From: a virus
Length of the DNA stretch: 20,844 nucleotides
Reading direction: 5' to 3' (one strand)
Virus record (IMG/VR): IMGVR_UViG_3300020392_000099
Span: 1 to 20,844 of that record
A program made the position numbers and the translations under genes. Every line of letters begins with the position of its first letter. Position 1 is the first letter of the stretch. Below are positions 6,714 to 15,417 of this stretch, one piece after another. The notes under the pieces are model-generated. The model saw only the letters and a program-made list of their open reading frames with translations, was not told where the DNA came from and ran no database searches.

Positions 6714-9700
6714 ATCTGGATACTATTATTGTAATACTGACAAGAAATGCAAACCTATTCCAAAGGGTTATCGCATTGGTTATGGTGGATATTTACGTCA
6801 TGATAAAGATGATGATGACAGTAATGGTAAAAAGAAAAACGGTAATGGCAACGGAGGAAACGGAAATGGTGGCAATGGTGGTAATGGTAATGGTAACGGT
6901 TCTGGCGGGAATGGCGGTGGCAATGGTGGATCCAACGGTGGTGGAGGAGGAATGAGTGAAGGATCACTTCATAAGTGGTTCAAAGGTTCCAAATCTAAAG
7001 ATGGTAAAGGTGGTTGGGTCAACGTCGTTACGGGTGGAACCTGTGCGAGTGATGAACCTGGTGAAGGAACACCCAAATGTGTATCTTCCTCAAAGAGAGC
7101 AAGTATGACAAAGGCAGAAAGATTATCTGCTGCACGTCGCAAAAAGAAAGCAGATCCTGGTCAACAATCTAAATCTGGTGCTGCTAAACCAACATACGTA
7201 TCAACTGATAGTCCAAGGAAAAAGAAAATGAAAGAAAGTCACTCTGATTGGAGAAATGATTTAAATGAGTTAAAATTTGGTGAGAAGGGAAAAACTTTCT
7301 TCTATAATGATCCAGCAGCAAGAAGAAATACCTTAAAGCAGACAGGGAAAGATCCTGGAAGGTTTGATGGAGCAAAACAGTATATGGGAGGTAAAGCAGT
7401 TAGTGCATTAAAACATGTTGCAGGACCAGTTGCTGCAGGATTAGCAGTTTCCAAAGGTGTGGATAGTCTAATGAAAATGAGAAAGAAAAAAGAAGAACAG
7501 AAAGAGGGAGTTGAATATATTGATGAGAATCTTATATCAACGGGTCTAAAGGTAGGAGCAAAGCAAGTTGCTAAACAGATTGCTAAAAGAGGTTTAAAGA
7601 GAACAGCAACACGTGCAGCAATTAAAGTTGGTGGAAAGGCAGGTGGAAAAGCAGCTCAACAAGCAGGACAAGTAGCAGCAAGAGAAACTAAAAAAGCAGC
7701 ACTAGATACAGCAGCTGCAGTAGGTAAAGGTGCGTCAGAGGGTCTTAAGAAAAGAAAAGAAGTAGCTTTAGGTAACATACAGAAAAAAACTGAGAGAATG
7801 GTTTCAGGTGAAGTACAAGAATCATCAGTAGTAGCTCAACCCAAAAAGAAATATGGTAAATTTGAAAAAGCAGGTAGAGTTATGGGTGGAATTGGTGGAA
7901 GTGTTGGTGGTGGTTTAGCAGGTGCTACTGTATCTGCCCCTACAGGACCAGGTGCTCTTGCAGGTACTGTTGCAGGTGGATTAGCAGGTGATATTGCAGG
8001 TACAAAAGTTGGTGGAACAATTGGTAAAAAAATTGATAAGGTTTTAAGTAAAAAGAATCCTCCTATTAAAAAAGAAAGTTACTCTGATTGGAGAACTGAT
8101 TTTGAAGAGGCATACGGTGGAGCAGGTGTGTCAAGAAAAGCAAAATTAGCATCAACACATCCACCAACAGCACAAGCAGCAGTCAAGAATATTCCAACAG
8201 AGACTGATAGAGGTGCAGGAAATAAGGCAATGCGTAGAGCAGGTAAACCAGTTGAGAAGAAGAGTCCTAATTATAAGGCATATATCATGAATAAGGAAGA
8301 GAAGGAAATGCCTAAGAATGTAAAAGGTATTGCAAAGGAATTGGATAAGGCAGTTGAGATGCATAAGAGTCAAGCAAAGAGATTAAGAAAAGCAGGAGTA
8401 AGTGAAGAAATTGTAACAGAAGGAGATAAGAAAGGTAAGGGAAGTGGTAGTAAGGATGCCTGTTATCATAAGGTTAAGTCAAGGTATTCAGTATGGCCAA
8501 GTGCTTATGCATCAGGTGCATTAGTTAAGTGTCGTAAGGTAGGTGCTGCGAACTGGGGTAATAGTAGTAAGAAAGAAGAGTTCGAACCAACTGGTGTATC
8601 ATTCCAACAGTTCTCAGAAAAATGCTGGAAGGGATATGAAAAGAAAGGCATGAAGACAATGTTTGGTAAGAGATATCCAAACTGTGTAAAAAAAGAAGAG
8701 GTAGAAAATGTAGATGAAAAAATTAAGTATGATAAGTCAGGTTCCTCTATGGATTATTTCTTAGGTGCTGATCCAAAGAAAACACAACATTACAAAGATA
8801 CAGTTAAGAAAAAAACTAAAAAAGAAGAGGTAGAGATTCTTGATGAAAGACAGAAAGACAGTGACAATCAAAGGTTAAGTCAAGAACGTGGTCGTTCTAA
8901 CTATGGTAAAGCATCTGTTAGAAACATGAGAGCATTTGGTAAGGGTGGCAATGCTGCTGATCCTGCTGAAAGACTGGTAGCAATCGACGCAAGACACAAA
9001 GCACATAAAGAAAAACGTGGTGTAAAGACCAAGGGAATGAGTGAAGCAAAGGTGGATGATAAAAAAATATTTGGTGTAACAGCAGACCGAAATGAGAGAA
9101 GGTTTGGTAAAAAAGGTGCTTTTGATATGCGAGGATCTGGTTCTCGTGGGCAAGACCCATCAGAAAGAGCAAAACTCGCAGCAAAAAGAGGAGAGGAGCA
9201 CAGAGCAAGAAGAGGTGTAAAGACCAAGGGTGTGAAAGAAGAAGTTGGAGTAAGCACTAATGCTGAAATGATGAAAGCAAGAAAAGAGGCAGAACTTCGT
9301 AAAAAAGAACAGGATGCTGTATCCAAAAAAATGAGAAAAGAGGAAATAACAACATTGCAGGATGCAAATGGTAATGATTTCATACAGGTAGTTGATGTTA
9401 TTTCATCAAAAAAGATAATGTCTGATTGGAGAAATGAATTAAGTGAAGATGACATGAAAGGAATGAGTGTTAAATCAGGACACAAAAGACCTACCAAATC
9501 AGGCGCTGGTATGACAAAGAAAGGTGTTGAGGCATATCGTCGTAGAAATCCTGGTTCTAAATTAAAGACTGCAGTGACTACAGAACCATCTAAGTTAAAA
9601 AAGGGATCTAAAGCAGCAAATCGTAGAAAAAGTTATTGTGCAAGAAGTGCAGGTCAAATGAAGAAGTTTCCAAAGGCAGCTAAAGATCCAGATAGCAGAT

Positions 9701-9739: not shown

Positions 9740-11386
9740 ATGAAAGATAATGTATACCTTGGAAATCCGAATTTAAAAAAAGCAAATACACCGATAGAAT
9801 TCACTGAAGAGAATGTCATTGAGTTCATGAAGTGTAAGGATAATCCTGTTTATTTTGCAAAGAAATATATAAAGATAGTATCACTTGATGAAGGATTAGT
9901 TCCTTTTAATTTATATCCATTTCAAGAAAAACTCGTAAACAATTTCCATGAAAACAGGTTTAATATCTGCAAGATGCCAAGACAGACTGGTAAATCTACT
10001 ACTGTGGTATCTTATCTTTTACACTATGCGGTATTCAATGATAACGTTAATATAGGTATTCTTGCGAACAAAGCAAAGATTGCCATGGATCTACTTGGTA
10101 GATTGCAGACTGCATATGAGAACTTACCAAAATGGATGCAGCAAGGTATTATTGCATGGAATAAAGGATCATTAGAATTAGAGAACGGATCAAAAATACT
10201 AGCAGCATCTACATCTGCAAGTGCGGTTCGTGGTATGTCATTTAACATCTTATTCTTGGATGAATTTGCTTTCGTACCGAATCATGTGGCAGAAGATTTC
10301 TTTGCATCTGTATATCCTACAATTTCATCTGGTACACAAACAAAGGTTATAATCGTTTCTACCCCTCGTGGTATGAATCATTTTTATCGTATGTGGCACG
10401 ATGCCGAACGAAATAAAAATGAATATGTTCCCACCGATGTTCACTGGTCAGAGGTGCCAGGTAGAGATGAGCAATGGAAATTGCAAACGATTGCAAATAC
10501 ATCAGAACAACAGTTTAAAGTTGAGTTTGAGTGTGAGTTCTTAGGATCCGTTAATACATTAATTAATCCTGCAAAGTTAAGAAATCTTGTTTATGAAAAT
10601 CCGAGAACAAGAAATGCTGGATTGGATATTTACGAAAACGCATTAGAAGATCATAATTACATGATAACCGTTGATGTAGCAAGAGGTTTAGGAAATGATT
10701 ACTCTGCATTTATAGTATTTGATATCACACAGTTTCCATACAAGGTTGTTGCAAAGTATCGAAACAATGAAATAAAACCAATGTTATTCCCAAACATAAT
10801 TCATAACGTGGCAAAAGGATATAACAATGCTTTTCTTTTAGTAGAGGTAAATGATATCGGAGATCAGGTTGCAAGCATCATACAGTATGATTTGGAATAT
10901 GAAAACTTACTCATGGCATCGATGAGAGGTCGTGCAGGGCAGGTTGTAGGTCAAGGATTTAGTGGAAAGAAAACACAACTTGGTGTTCGTATGACATCTG
11001 CGGTTAAAAAACTAGGGTGTAGTAATCTCAAAGCCATGATGGAGGATGATAAACTCTTAACTTGTGATTATGAAATTATATCTGAGTTGACAACATTTGC
11101 ACAGAAACACAATTCATTTGAGGCAGAGGAAGGATGTAATGATGATTTGGCAATGTGTCTTGTAATATTTGCATGGTTAGTTGCACAGGATTACTTTAAG
11201 GAGATGACAGATAATGACATTCGTAAGAGGATGTATGAGGAACAAAAAAATCAAATTGAGCAAGATATGGCACCCTTTGGATTCATCAATGATGGATTGG
11301 AAGATACAGTGACAGTTGACGCAAACGGAGATAGATGGTATGCTGATGAATATGGGGATCGTTCCTATATGTGGGACTATATGTGA
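9740..11386 (+). CDS. gp17: gp17 terminase large subunit (packaging ATPase/nuclease)
   Basis: It encodes 548 residues (T4 gp17 is 610). The ATPase domain comes first, with Walker A-like MPRQTGKST at 79-87, Walker B ILFLDEFAF at 170-178 (D174, catalytic E175) and coupling motif IIVSTPRG at 204-211. The RNase H-like nuclease domain follows, with acidic residues D312 (ITVDVARG), E369 (LLVEVNDIGDQ) and D469 (CNDDLAMCL), matching the T4 D401/E458/D542 triad by motif. gp17 powers DNA translocation through the portal and cuts concatemers for headful packaging. The N-terminus lacks part of the T4 gp16-binding extension. It starts seven bases after the mosaic gene, with a poor ribosome site (gattaaattATG), so it may rely on coupling to upstream translation. 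Confidence 0.96.
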   Translation: MKDNVYLGNPNLKKANTPIEFTEENVIEFMKCKDNPVYFAKKYIKIVSLDEGLVPFNLYPFQEKLVNNFHENRFNICKMPRQTGKSTTVVSYLLHYAVFNDNVNIGILANKAKIAMDLLGRLQTAYENLPKWMQQGIIAWNKGSLELENGSKILAASTSASAVRGMSFNILFLDEFAFVPNHVAEDFFASVYPTISSGTQTKVIIVSTPRGMNHFYRMWHDAERNKNEYVPTDVHWSEVPGRDEQWKLQTIANTSEQQFKVEFECEFLGSVNTLINPAKLRNLVYENPRTRNAGLDIYENALEDHNYMITVDVARGLGNDYSAFIVFDITQFPYKVVAKYRNNEIKPMLFPNIIHNVAKGYNNAFLLVEVNDIGDQVASIIQYDLEYENLLMASMRGRAGQVVGQGFSGKKTQLGVRMTSAVKKLGCSNLKAMMEDDKLLTCDYEIISELTTFAQKHNSFEAEEGCNDDLAMCLVIFAWLVAQDYFKEMTDNDIRKRMYEEQKNQIEQDMAPFGFINDGLEDTVTVDANGDRWYADEYGDRSYMWDYM

Positions 11387-11616: not shown

Positions 11617-11768
11617 GTGGAGACATGGGATTACGAGACGATAATATCGTCTTTTATAGTAAAGAAATGACCCAAGCAAAACTAATTCTTTTAGCACACA
11701 AGGGTATTAAATTAGATTGGAAAGAATATGACTCTTACGTCTCAACAAGTAAACGAATCACTGAATGA
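11613..11768 (+). CDS. 51-residue protein of unknown function upstream of Nfu
   Basis: It begins in an ATGA overlap with the zipper gene and has a very good ribosome site (GAGGAGG near 11602-11607). The product starts MSGDMGLRDDNIVFYSKEMT and has a central hydrophobic 'AKLILLAHKGIKLDW'. It ends 41 bases inside the Nfu gene in another frame, an unusually long overlap. Either the overlap is real or the functional product ends differently. I do not recognise a family. Confidence 0.5.
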   Translation: MSGDMGLRDDNIVFYSKEMTQAKLILLAHKGIKLDWKEYDSYVSTSKRITE

Positions 11769-12012
11769 TATCAGACCATACATCGAAGCAGATGGTGGTT
11801 ATCTTGAATTCATAGAATTAGATTATGATTTAGAAGAAAACATTAGAATGTATTATGGTGTTAAGCAAGGTGAGAAGGCAGCAATTGCTAAAGTTAGATT
11901 AAGTGGTGCCTGTGAATCCTGTGCAATGAGTGCTCAAACTTTAAAAATGGGGATTGAACGACACCTTACACAACAGTTTCCAGAAATAGTCGGAGTGATA
12001 CAGGTGTTATGA
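11728..12012 (+). CDS. nfu: Nfu/NifU C-terminal-type Fe-S cluster carrier
   Basis: It encodes 94 residues, essentially one NifU C-terminal domain. Diagnostic parts are the N-terminal helix with 'IRPYIEADGGYLEFIELD', then 'KVRLSGACESCAMSAQTLKMGIERHL' containing the cluster-binding C62-x-x-C65, and a C-terminal 'PEIVGVIQVL'. Stand-alone Nfu proteins bind and transfer [4Fe-4S] or [2Fe-2S] clusters; in cyanobacteria the homologue supports photosystem I and other Fe-S proteins. Differences from the usual ~75-80-residue form are about 15 extra residues (roughly 33-50) before the beta strand preceding the CxxC, and Ala in place of the common Pro after the second Cys. It is a likely auxiliary metabolic gene sustaining host Fe-S assembly during infection. 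Its stop overlaps the next start (ATGA). A GGAAAG ribosome site is just upstream. Confidence 0.9.
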   Translation: MTLTSQQVNESLNDIRPYIEADGGYLEFIELDYDLEENIRMYYGVKQGEKAAIAKVRLSGACESCAMSAQTLKMGIERHLTQQFPEIVGVIQVL

Positions 12013-12215
12013 AATCAGTTATCCTAGCAGCATGTTTCTTACCACTTGCAATAATCTACATAGTTATGAAACTGGCATTATGGTTATCGGCAACTAAAGC
12101 TGAGTCAAAGTATGTTAAAGAAGAATCTAAAAAACCTCATGGACCATATCTGGCAGACGCATATGCAGACGTTGACGAAGAGGAAGAGGAATATTGGAAT
12201 ATCTCAGATGATTGA
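12009..12215 (+). CDS. Small single-pass membrane protein
   Basis: It encodes 68 residues. Residues 2-28 (KSVILAACFLPLAIIYIVMKLALWLSA) form one hydrophobic membrane segment. It could alternatively be a lipoprotein-like signal, but no lipobox is convincing. The remainder is hydrophilic, with a strongly acidic C-terminus (DVDEEEEEYWNISDD). It is coupled to nfu by ATGA overlap. It could be a membrane anchor or a small lysis/inhibitor peptide; nothing decides this. Confidence 0.65.
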   Translation: MKSVILAACFLPLAIIYIVMKLALWLSATKAESKYVKEESKKPHGPYLADAYADVDEEEEEYWNISDD

Positions 12216-12333
12216 TAGAACTTTATTTGAGTATTATTCTGAGAGAGGTATGGATGTGCCAAAATGGAAAATGAAAAAAGATCCTGATTGGTGGATAGAT
12301 TATCTTAAACAACTTGAGATAAATGGAATTTGA
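12208..12333 (+). CDS. 41-residue protein of unknown function
   Basis: It starts at ATG 12208, overlapping the end of the membrane-protein gene by eight bases. A longer version from 12112 in the same frame is possible, but its extra N-terminus lies wholly inside the upstream gene and looks like a shadow. The product MIDRTLFEYYSERGMDVPKW... is rich in Trp, Lys and Asp ('PKWKMKKDPDWWIDYLKQLE') and probably helical. No family recognised. Confidence 0.5.
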   Translation: MIDRTLFEYYSERGMDVPKWKMKKDPDWWIDYLKQLEINGI

Positions 12334-12550
12334 TGAGCAGATAGAATTAGAACATTTACTTTTTTCTGAAAGAAAATGTAGAGTTTGTGGTAAGGTAAAA
12401 AATTTATTAGAAGATTTTTATTTGACAAGAAAATATAAAGGCACACTTCCGTCAGCATACTCTTATGAGTGTAAGACTTGCACTGTAAAAAGAATTACAA
12501 AAAATAGAAAAATAAAATTTACATCAGAAAATATATATCCAGATTGGTAG
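12323..12550 (+). CDS. Stand-alone zinc-ribbon protein
   Basis: It encodes 75 residues. Two Cys pairs, C19-x2-C22 (CRVCGK) and C50-x2-C53 (CKTC), are separated by 27 residues, with 'LLEDFYLTRKYKG' between them. This resembles the zinc ribbon that precedes HNH nuclease domains in phage proteins, but no HNH domain follows. It may bind nucleic acid, act as a transcription or nuclease regulator, or be a remnant of a homing nuclease. It overlaps the previous gene by 11 bases. The C-terminus is NIYPDW, and the last four residues recur at the end of the next peptide. Confidence 0.7.
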   Translation: MEFDEQIELEHLLFSERKCRVCGKVKNLLEDFYLTRKYKGTLPSAYSYECKTCTVKRITKNRKIKFTSENIYPDW

Positions 12551-12708: not shown

Positions 12709-15417
12709 ATGGCCTTAAATTTAGCATCTCCAGGTATTCTTATAAGAGAGGTTGATCTAACGATTGGAAGGATCGATGGAACAACTGGTAAAGTCGGTGG
12801 AATCGTAGGATCTTTCGAAAAAGGACCTGTCGGTGAACCAACAGTTATAACTGGAGAAAATGATTTATTTGACCAATTTGGTCAACCATATGATACAGAT
12901 AAACAGTACGAAACATGGATGGTTGCATCTTCATACTTATCGTATGGAGGATCTTTAAATGTCATCCGAGCAGATGATGATGGTTTAAAAAATGGTTTTG
13001 TTGGTGCAACAGGAATAACAACTGTAAAAATTAGAAGCACTGAACACTATCAAGAATTAGGATATCAAGAAAACACTCTTGATACTGTCACAGTAGCAGC
13101 ACGAAATCCTGGTTCTTGGTCAAATGGAATCAGAATTGCAATTATTGATGGATTAGCAGATCAAATATTGACTTTATCTGATACATCTGGTATCAATGTT
13201 GGTACAGGTATAACCCAATCAATTCCTGCTGGCACGATTGATGCAAATGGTACCACATTAACAGGGCATTTTAAAGGTATTGTCACTGGAGTTGGAACTA
13301 CTTCTGGTTTATCGACAGATAAACAAATTGCAGTTAAGGTTGTAGGTGTTGTAACAACGGTGGATGACATACAAGTTGAATCAGCAGCAGATTACAATAG
13401 CATTTACAAATTTGCAGGATCATCTGGTGGTGAAATTGTTAACTTCCCAAATACTGGAGCAGGAACAACATCTGCCAACATAGTAAGAGCATTTGGAGGA
13501 ACAACTCCAACACAGCATAATCAGGGTGTTACAATTACTTCATTCTTCCTTGACAAATCTGGAACCTTGGATCAAGCAGGTAACGCACCATTACTAGCAG
13601 GTGCAACTGAAATTGGTATCAACACCACTGGATTGTCTGATATCCTTTCTAATAAATCATTTATTGGAATAGGCACTGAACTTATTGATGCCACAGGTGC
13701 AAGTATCGGTCTTGGAAAGATTACTGGACTATCAAGGGGATCACAAGGAACAACAGCTTTAGAACATGCTGAAGGTAGTGTGGTTAAAATTTTAACTCGT
13801 AATCAAAATATAGGTGATGTTACAGCACAAATTAACAATGAAGCTACAAAGGTGGGAATTACTACAAATGTAGACATTAGTGCAAAAGTAAATGCAGGGG
13901 GATTCCTAAGAATTACTAATGAAGTAATTTCAGTATCTCAGTTCTTTAATGGTCAATCCACTCAAACAACCAGTAGTTTAGCAGAGGACTGGTTTGATAA
14001 TCAAAAGTTTGATATTGCCACTGCTTCTGTAGGTGGAGAAAAAAAAGTTATAGAATCTAACTGGAATGCAATCGCTGAAAGACCAGGCACATCAGACTAT
14101 GCTTCTAAGAGAGGTGGTAGATTTGATGAGGTTCATGTTTTAGTTATTGATGCAAAAGGAACTGTAAGTGGTAATGCAGGTACAATTTTAGAAAAACATC
14201 TTAACTTATCAAAGGCAAAAGATGCAACGTTCTCTGTAGGATCACCATCTTACTGGAGAAAATATCTTTATACTAATTCTACTAACATTTTCGGTTTATC
14301 AGGAAATCTAATTGGTGTTACAACAACTGGATTTACTGGTGATAACTTTACTCCATTTGCTGATGGTTCATGGGATCAAAATGCAGAAGGAGTTGTATTT
14401 AATGCTTCAGGGGCACAAAATTTAGTGTTCAGTAATGGAGCTAATTATGGTGGTGTTGAAGTTATTACTGCAACTGGAGCACTTAATGCTGGATTAGGAG
14501 GATTGGTAGCAGGATACAAAGTATTCGAAAATGATGGAGTCAATAATGTTGACTTCTTACTTATGGGTGGTGGACATCTTGGTAAGAATCAGACTAGACA
14601 ACTAGCATCAACATTGATTGCAGTCGCAGAGGAAAGAAAGGATGCAGTCGCATTCATATCACCATCAAGAGATCAAGTTGTATCAGATACAACTGACCAG
14701 ACTGCTGCGATTGTGTTAGATGATCAAAAGATAACCGACAATTTGGTTGATTTTTATGATCCAGTTCCATCAACAACCTTTGGTGTATTTGACAGTGGAT
14801 ACAAATACATGTATGATAGGTTTAATGAAGTGTTCCGTTATATTCCATTAAATGGAGATATTGCGGGATTATGTGCAAGAAATGACATTAACGATTTCCC
14901 TTGGTTCTCACCAGCAGGTACAGACAGAGGAGCAATCTTAAATGCAGTTAAACTTCCTTATAATCCTACCAGATTACAGAGAGACAAACTATACTCAAGT
15001 AGGATAAATCCAGTCGTCAATTCACCTGGTGCTGGAATCATATTATTCGGTGATAAAACTGGTTTTGCAAAAGCATCTGCATTCGATAGAATTAACGTTC
15101 GTCGATTATTCATATTCCTTGAGCAAGGAATTGCAGCTGCTGCGAAGGATCAACTCTTCGAATTTAACGATGAAATTACAAGGGCAAACTTTGTAAATAT
15201 TGTCGAACCTTTCCTAAGAGATGTTCAATCTAAGAGGGGTATTCAAGATTACGTTGTTATCTGTGATGAGACAAATAACACTGCTGCCGTTATAGATAAT
15301 AACGAATTTATAGCAGACATTTTCATCAAACCAGCAAGATCAATTAACTTCATTGGTCTTACATTTGTTGCCACTCGAACTGGCATCTCATTCGAAGAAG
15401 TTATCGGTTCCGTTTAA
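12709..15417 (+). CDS. gp18: gp18 contractile tail sheath protein with enlarged middle domain
   Basis: It encodes 902 residues, versus 659 in T4. The N-terminus 'LASPGILIREVDLT' and 'GSFEKGPVGEPTVITGENDLFDQFGQP' match the T4-like sheath. 'NPGSWSNGIRIAIIDG' at 133-148 and the region from 'AERPGTSDYASKRGGRFDEV' (457) to the C-terminus are conserved core, including 'ARNDINDFPWFSPAGTDRG' and the contractile C-terminal domain ending EVIGSV. Residues ~160-440 are an insertion, Gly/Thr/Ile-rich, predicted mostly beta. Inside it (297-362) is a module ending RGSQGTTALEHAEGSVV that resembles one in the first gene of this window. The insertion is probably exposed on the sheath surface. The gene has its own late promoter and strong SD, as expected for an abundant protein. 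Confidence 0.95.
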   Translation: MALNLASPGILIREVDLTIGRIDGTTGKVGGIVGSFEKGPVGEPTVITGENDLFDQFGQPYDTDKQYETWMVASSYLSYGGSLNVIRADDDGLKNGFVGATGITTVKIRSTEHYQELGYQENTLDTVTVAARNPGSWSNGIRIAIIDGLADQILTLSDTSGINVGTGITQSIPAGTIDANGTTLTGHFKGIVTGVGTTSGLSTDKQIAVKVVGVVTTVDDIQVESAADYNSIYKFAGSSGGEIVNFPNTGAGTTSANIVRAFGGTTPTQHNQGVTITSFFLDKSGTLDQAGNAPLLAGATEIGINTTGLSDILSNKSFIGIGTELIDATGASIGLGKITGLSRGSQGTTALEHAEGSVVKILTRNQNIGDVTAQINNEATKVGITTNVDISAKVNAGGFLRITNEVISVSQFFNGQSTQTTSSLAEDWFDNQKFDIATASVGGEKKVIESNWNAIAERPGTSDYASKRGGRFDEVHVLVIDAKGTVSGNAGTILEKHLNLSKAKDATFSVGSPSYWRKYLYTNSTNIFGLSGNLIGVTTTGFTGDNFTPFADGSWDQNAEGVVFNASGAQNLVFSNGANYGGVEVITATGALNAGLGGLVAGYKVFENDGVNNVDFLLMGGGHLGKNQTRQLASTLIAVAEERKDAVAFISPSRDQVVSDTTDQTAAIVLDDQKITDNLVDFYDPVPSTTFGVFDSGYKYMYDRFNEVFRYIPLNGDIAGLCARNDINDFPWFSPAGTDRGAILNAVKLPYNPTRLQRDKLYSSRINPVVNSPGAGIILFGDKTGFAKASAFDRINVRRLFIFLEQGIAAAAKDQLFEFNDEITRANFVNIVEPFLRDVQSKRGIQDYVVICDETNNTAAVIDNNEFIADIFIKPARSINFIGLTFVATRTGISFEEVIGSV

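Follow-up and report, generated by a model that had tools for sequence, protein, structure and literature searches.

Why would a phage keep a gene for an Fe-S cluster carrier among the genes of its late structural region, and why would this carrier be longer than its cyanobacterial counterparts? Both questions are raised by an IMG/VR virus record (IMGVR_UViG_3300020392_000099, 20.8 kb), analysed here over its whole length of 20,844 nucleotides and called the window. It holds structural genes of a T4-like cyanophage, i.e., terminase subunits together with sheath, tube, and portal genes named by synteny with phage P-TIM68, and among them an nfu gene with an extra segment.

Viral nifU has been in print since 2008, when it was reported from GOS sequences and a role in nitrogen fixation was raised and judged premature (PMC2186209), and the gene is annotated in P-SSM2. 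It was also listed under Fe-S cluster assembly in viromes from Cariaco and the ETNP (PMC7785012, PMC8940887). The consulted sections of these papers leave open the reason for a phage Fe-S scaffold gene, the later virome studies suggesting Fe-S assembly or stress. Cyanophage ndhI has been covered by a review (PMC10452541), and the consulted sections of the paper on the photosystem I (PSI) cassette mention neither nfu nor ndhI (PMC5019241). In the open-access literature, a scope that leaves out most subscription papers, no description was found of the insert type or of a linkage between nfu and ndhI. The insert variant of the phage gene is what is new here.

An nfu gene between terminase and tail sheath

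The reading frame is complete from ATG to stop, and its coordinates, frame, and length of 94 aa are those given by a sequence-only reading that preceded this analysis (Table 1). That reading also recognized a complete NifU C-terminal domain with a CxxC motif, which is borne out by a Pfam match far beyond chance (PF01106, 70.8 bits for a cut-off of 27, E 1.1e-19), made of two stretches flanking the insert, and by the presence of C62 and C65. The equivalog cut-offs of E. coli-type NfuA (32.9 of 269.35 bits) and of full-length NifU (37.5 of 273.3 bits) are missed, and the additional domain of either protein is absent from the 94 aa.

Table 1. Features of the window around nfu
Feature	Position	Strand	Evidence
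Terminase large subunit gp17, upstream neighbour	9740..11386	+	PF03237, PF17289; phrog_2
Small ORF (MDWD); homologue upstream of ndhP-ndhI-nfu in L155/L200	11437..11616	+	
Small ORF (MSGD), overlaps nfu start; homologue in L155/L200	11613..11768	+	
nfu, 94-aa NifU C-terminal-domain protein, insert type	11728..12012	+	PF01106 70.8 bits; PHROG 29737 E 5.2e-48
Extra segment, about residues 33-51, YDLEENIRMYYGVKQGEKA	11824..11880	+	alignments; pN/pS; model
CxxC cluster-ligand motif, C62-E-S-C65	11911..11922	+	translation
68-aa ORF, phrog_2832, start overlaps nfu stop (ATGA); homologue directly 3' of nfu in L155/L200 beside ndhI	12009..12215	+	
Endonuclease VII-like small ORF, 75 aa, phrog_4723, between nfu and gp18	12323..12550	+	
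Tail sheath gp18, 902-aa ORF, downstream neighbour	12709..15417	+	named by synteny with annotated P-TIM68

Two types of phage Nfu are distinguished by the spacing from DGG to CxxC, which is 44 residues in the window and 26-30 in the short phage type, against 26 in 30 of 30 cyanobacterial Nfus. The window protein thus has 14-18 extra residues, in agreement with the earlier count of about 15. The insert-type set (n = 57) comprises 55 IMG/VR loci, the window, and P-TIM68, and since it is defined by a spacing of 44, its constant length follows from the definition; the actual observation is that no spacing falls between 30 and 44.

The location in a late structural region, between the gp17 terminase and gp18 tail sheath genes, had been called unusual for such a gene. 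The location itself holds, but the slot repeatedly harbours nfu in phages, as it is occupied in 54 of 57 insert-type loci and counted as occupied in 49 of 104 short-type loci (two ambiguous, L122 and L211, with ndhI-nfu upstream of gp17). The three insert-type exceptions are L039 and L043, where nfu stands before a large ORF that looks by eye like a fibre gene, and L045, whose neighbours look, again by eye, like the small ORFs that surround nfu within the ndhI islands of L129 and L143. The endonuclease VII-like ORF accompanies nfu at gp17/gp18 in many loci and may be what is left of a homing element, one that maintains this slot as a hotspot.

As nfu starts inside the preceding small ORF and shares an ATGA stop/start overlap with the following one, its translation may be coupled in one operon; the ATGA is present at the nfu stop in 20 of the 57 insert-type loci. 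Late expression of the gene is probable. A candidate late promoter, TATAAATA, was discarded, its two copies in the window both lying away from nfu and their count being no higher than chance.

Both cysteines of the CxxC motif are invariant in 69 aligned sequences. The sequence-only reading had singled out the Ala that replaces Pro after C65. This replacement is real in comparison with hosts, Pro being found in 30 of 30 cyanobacterial Nfus (best 30 of 291 genomes), but it is no peculiarity of the window gene, as Ala is ordinary in phages (41/57 insert-type and 101/104 short-type loci, 142/161 in total).

Among 50,697 phage records, 20 match Nfu. Fourteen of these come from Prochlorococcus phages or marine single-cell viruses, including P-TIM68, P-SSM2, P-SSM5, and eight single-cell viruses. 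The other six are labelled Listeria or Staphylococcus and show 34-35% identity. No record named Synechococcus or Cyanophage is among these Nfu matches. The window's terminase matched 478 records at E 1e-170, among which 375 bear the name Synechococcus, 61 Cyanophage, 24 Prochlorococcus, and 8 Marine. All seven single-cell viruses among the best 60 of these records carry Nfu. In these data, nfu therefore characterizes some Prochlorococcus phages as well as single-cell viruses from the ocean that have no host named in their records. Among cultured phages, the insert type was found only in P-TIM68. Relatives are encoded in 266 IMG/VR stretches, and the best 80 of these comprise 55 with the insert, 24 without, and one partial; both IMG/VR retrievals took the best 80 loci by similarity to the query and are not random samples.

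Relatives in phages and in cells

The closest known counterpart is the P-TIM68 protein AIR93439.1, of the insert type, 76.9% identical, and encoded at the same place between gp17 and gp18, although its record annotates it as a hypothetical protein and its upstream small ORF differs. The nifU products of P-SSM2 and P-SSM5, annotated as NifU-like or NifU domain protein, are likewise single-domain phage Nfus with CxxC, but they lack the insert (spacing 28) and their genes adjoin petE instead of lying at gp17/gp18. Cyanobacterial NfuA and chloroplast CnfU (NifU-like protein 2; 2z51) share the CxxC Nfu domain and fold with the window protein. Cyanobacterial Nfus are 18 residues shorter from DGG to CxxC, have CGSCP where phages have C..CA, and fall in a separate branch.

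Two trees place the phage Nfus in one branch separate from the cellular rows, cyanobacterial ones included, with supports of 100/99 and 100/98, which makes a recent copy of a host gene unlikely. In the first tree, nine cellular rows were removed (112 to 103) and rows with LHGAC, including P-TIM68, are absent. The second includes the LHGAC rows, keeps the insert columns, and was thinned from 121 to 94 rows at 96% identity, leaving out L060 and 14 cellular loci (long branches, NfuA-type, truncated, or copies). In both trees, which for this short domain hold 18 and 12 cyanobacterial rows drawn from the best 30 of 291 genomes after near-copy removal, the window Nfu is not nested in the cyanobacterial branch. 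It shares the phage branch with the P-SSM2 type in both, yet it lacks the short beta1-beta2 turn of that type (spacing 44 vs 26-30). The second tree places the origin of the insert in one change, with a support of 34/0, whereas the first gives two changes, L045 standing apart. The insert may thus have arisen once or twice, the domain being short and the trees weak within the phage branch.

Whether the loop is common in host Nfus was examined in cyanobacteria and SAR11, and it is absent from those inspected. A match to Nfu is present in 283 of 291 cyanobacterial genomes and starts at model position 50-54 among the matches listed; none of the best 30 of the 291 genomes has the insert, the spacing being 26 in each. 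In the SAR11 order, 137 of 147 genomes have a match, starting at model position 48-55 save one among the matches listed. The lone match that seemed to span the insert (G374) proved, once read, to be without it. An origin of the gene in SAR11 was considered and rejected: most matches belong to longer open frames (about 180-225 aa), and those listed begin after most or all of the insert. Two short peptide patterns searched in 84,980 species retrieved 19 relatives, none with the insert.

A 19-kb contig of a Pelagibacter MAG of SAR11 (L280/L099) encodes a 91-aa stand-alone Nfu with CAMS at CxxC and HGG for DGG. Unlike the usual longer SAR11 protein, it is perhaps the product of a phage contig in the bin.

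Gene neighbours and candidate clients

Away from gp17/gp18, 28 of 55 short-type nfu genes lie within 1.5 kb of petE (17), ndhP (9), or ndhI (5), some having two of these partners. For control positions taken in the same loci at a distance of over 3 kb, the corresponding share is 3.6%. Among the 48 loci with room for this control, 25 have such a neighbour where 1.8 would be expected, a count attained in none of 10000 simulations; as related contigs are not independent, the simulation overstates the certainty, and the three different partners are the better argument. The nfu gene overlaps or abuts ndhI in L155/L200, L122, and L268, and ndhP in L231, L232, L239, L263, and L266. None of the three insert-type genes outside the slot has petE, ndhI, or ndhP within 1.5 kb. 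In L155/L200, the order ndhP-ndhI-nfu is followed by the homologue of the window's 68-aa ORF, so that the two genes may have been transferred jointly.

L155 further contains, at 9021-9329, between the MDWD/MSGD ORFs and ndhP-ndhI-nfu, an ORF that is Nfu-like by eye (TKSNVEASF...PGIIGAIRVS) and has no CxxC. A tblastn search with it gave further matches upstream of nfu in L066, L068, L201, and L202. The stretch 9051-9326 matches nothing in Pfam at E 0.1 or in the phages collection. The ORF is reminiscent of the second domain of chloroplast CnfU, which lacks CxxC. In L254 and L256, a psbA match is found no more than about 2.5 kb from nfu, and matches to a heme oxygenase query and to glutaredoxin less than 5 kb from it; this region is possibly another photosynthesis island.

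The frequent position of viral nfu beside photosynthetic electron-transport genes suggests that these viruses take part in supplying clusters to photosynthesis proteins. Part of this linkage may merely reflect photosynthesis-gene islands, since plastocyanin, encoded by petE and the commonest neighbour, is a copper protein.

Candidate clients are encoded by several of the carriers. P-TIM68 possesses psaJF-C-A-B-K-E-D, ndhI, psbA, psbD, and a putative glutaredoxin gene, and a psaA match was obtained for no other phage in the collection of 50,697 records. Nfu and NdhI occur on one record in eight viruses of this collection, namely P-TIM68 and seven single-cell virus contigs. P-SSM2 and P-SSM5 have nfu and a Fer2 ferredoxin, with no NdhI match. 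A review describes NdhI as holding two [4Fe-4S] clusters, and cyanobacterial NfuA as a donor of [4Fe-4S] to PsaC in Synechococcus 7002 and of [2Fe-2S] to ferredoxin in Synechocystis (PMC7058544).

PSI and ribonucleotide reductase (RNR)-related enzymes had been proposed as clients from the sequence. The former gains indirect support from P-TIM68, in which an insert-type nfu coexists with psaA, psaC, and ndhI. The latter was abandoned, as P-TIM68 has annotated nrdA/nrdB, and class I RNR has a metal/radical site and no Fe-S cluster.

The co-occurrence has clear bounds. NdhI is found in none of 22 further nfu-bearing records beyond P-TIM68 (12 insert-type and 9 short-type IMG/VR contigs, and P-SSM2), nor in any of 10 further short-type IMG/VR contigs, including L246 (235 kb), L221 (123 kb), and L254 (116 kb). 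L246, L221, and L256 have no Fer2 or PsaA match either; L254 has Fer2. P-TIM40 carries ndhI and is absent from the Nfu matches. Among loci retrieved for ndhI or psaA, hmmsearch found Nfu in 5 of 83 (80 being ndhI loci) and in 4 of 26 whole records, all records being fragments. No psbA was found in 12 insert-type contigs by a search run without positive control, so these contigs probably end short of the photosynthesis island. Only one genome, P-TIM68, connects the insert type with PSI, no other insert-type contig being tied to PSI or NdhI. In IMG/VR at large, ndhI is common (198 stretches encode relatives), and a PsaA/PsaB motif is present in only two contigs (23 and 12 kb), neither of which matched Nfu.

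These data make it somewhat probable that the window gene encodes a carrier that supplies clusters to phage-encoded Fe-S proteins of photosynthesis. The best surviving rival, possible but rather unlikely, is a general supply or repair function, in which phage Nfu would reinforce the host's own delivery of clusters during iron shortage or oxidative stress, without preferring any phage client. It would account for the several large nfu contigs devoid of any sought phage Fe-S client and for the several different neighbourhoods of nfu, but it predicts neither the nearness to petE, ndhI, and ndhP nor the eight viruses with both Nfu and NdhI. A narrower proposal, unlikely and offered tentatively, is that insert-type Nfu would be a dedicated maturation factor for virus-encoded PSI and NDH-1 subunits, loading [4Fe-4S] clusters while the insert docks the client.

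The extra segment and the proposed role

In the 45 distinct insert-type genes, residues E37, R40, Y43, G44, and A51 of the insert are invariant. The pN/pS ratio is 0.25 in the insert versus 0.13 and 0.18 in the flanking core, ratios that are rough because pS is high (about 0.65), and the insert is under purifying selection. The AlphaFold model of the window protein (mean pLDDT 89.8) predicts an ordered loop with a short helix (37-42), modelled at high confidence, between strands 25-32 and 52-59; its lowest-pLDDT block is the CxxC loop (61-70). By topology, the insert would sit on the beta1-beta2 connection, at the hairpin end away from the CxxC loop. The Nfu fold is supported by the best solved match, Arabidopsis chloroplast CnfU (2z51, Z 10.4, rmsd 2.5, 74 aligned), and by a match to 2m5o (Z 10.3, rmsd 2.3, 75 aligned). 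Foldseek rows ranked under the Nfus (GMP synthase, CzrB, and others) were set aside as common folds.

A surface connection usually tolerates changes in length, and this one evolves somewhat faster than the core; the insert could accordingly be a functionless, neutral lengthening of the beta-hairpin, an idea that fits both readings of the clients. Such neutrality is doubtful, given the five invariant residues, the confidently modelled segment, and the spacings of 161 measurable phage loci, which are 26, 28, 30, or 44 with none in between. A role in virion assembly, suggested by the place of insert-type genes between terminase and sheath and by the overlap of the window nfu with its neighbour ORFs, is very improbable, since the same family lies elsewhere beside ndhI, ndhP, and petE, other small ORFs occupy the slot too, and CxxC is invariant.

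For the favoured reading, a carrier serving phage-encoded photosynthetic proteins, the insert would probably be a docking element. The phage gene encodes a stand-alone Nfu, two subunits of which would hold a cluster between their CxxC motifs and hand it to apo-proteins made during infection. The likeliest clients would be NdhI, PsaC/PsaA/PsaB in the PSI phage, and the ferredoxin PetF in others. Light-driven, perhaps cyclic, electron flow could thereby be kept going as host synthesis stops. The insert would most likely add a partner-docking surface and leave the cluster chemistry unchanged.

The linkage to ndhI, ndhP, and petE, together with the insert type in a PSI phage, makes the purpose of phage nfu directly testable. 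If phage Nfu loads NdhI, PsaC, or PetF, with the insert determining which of them, viral photosynthesis genes would bring their own cofactor supply. If the insert type is dedicated to PSI and NDH-1 maturation, a virus bringing a reaction centre would also bring the carrier that loads its [4Fe-4S] clusters.
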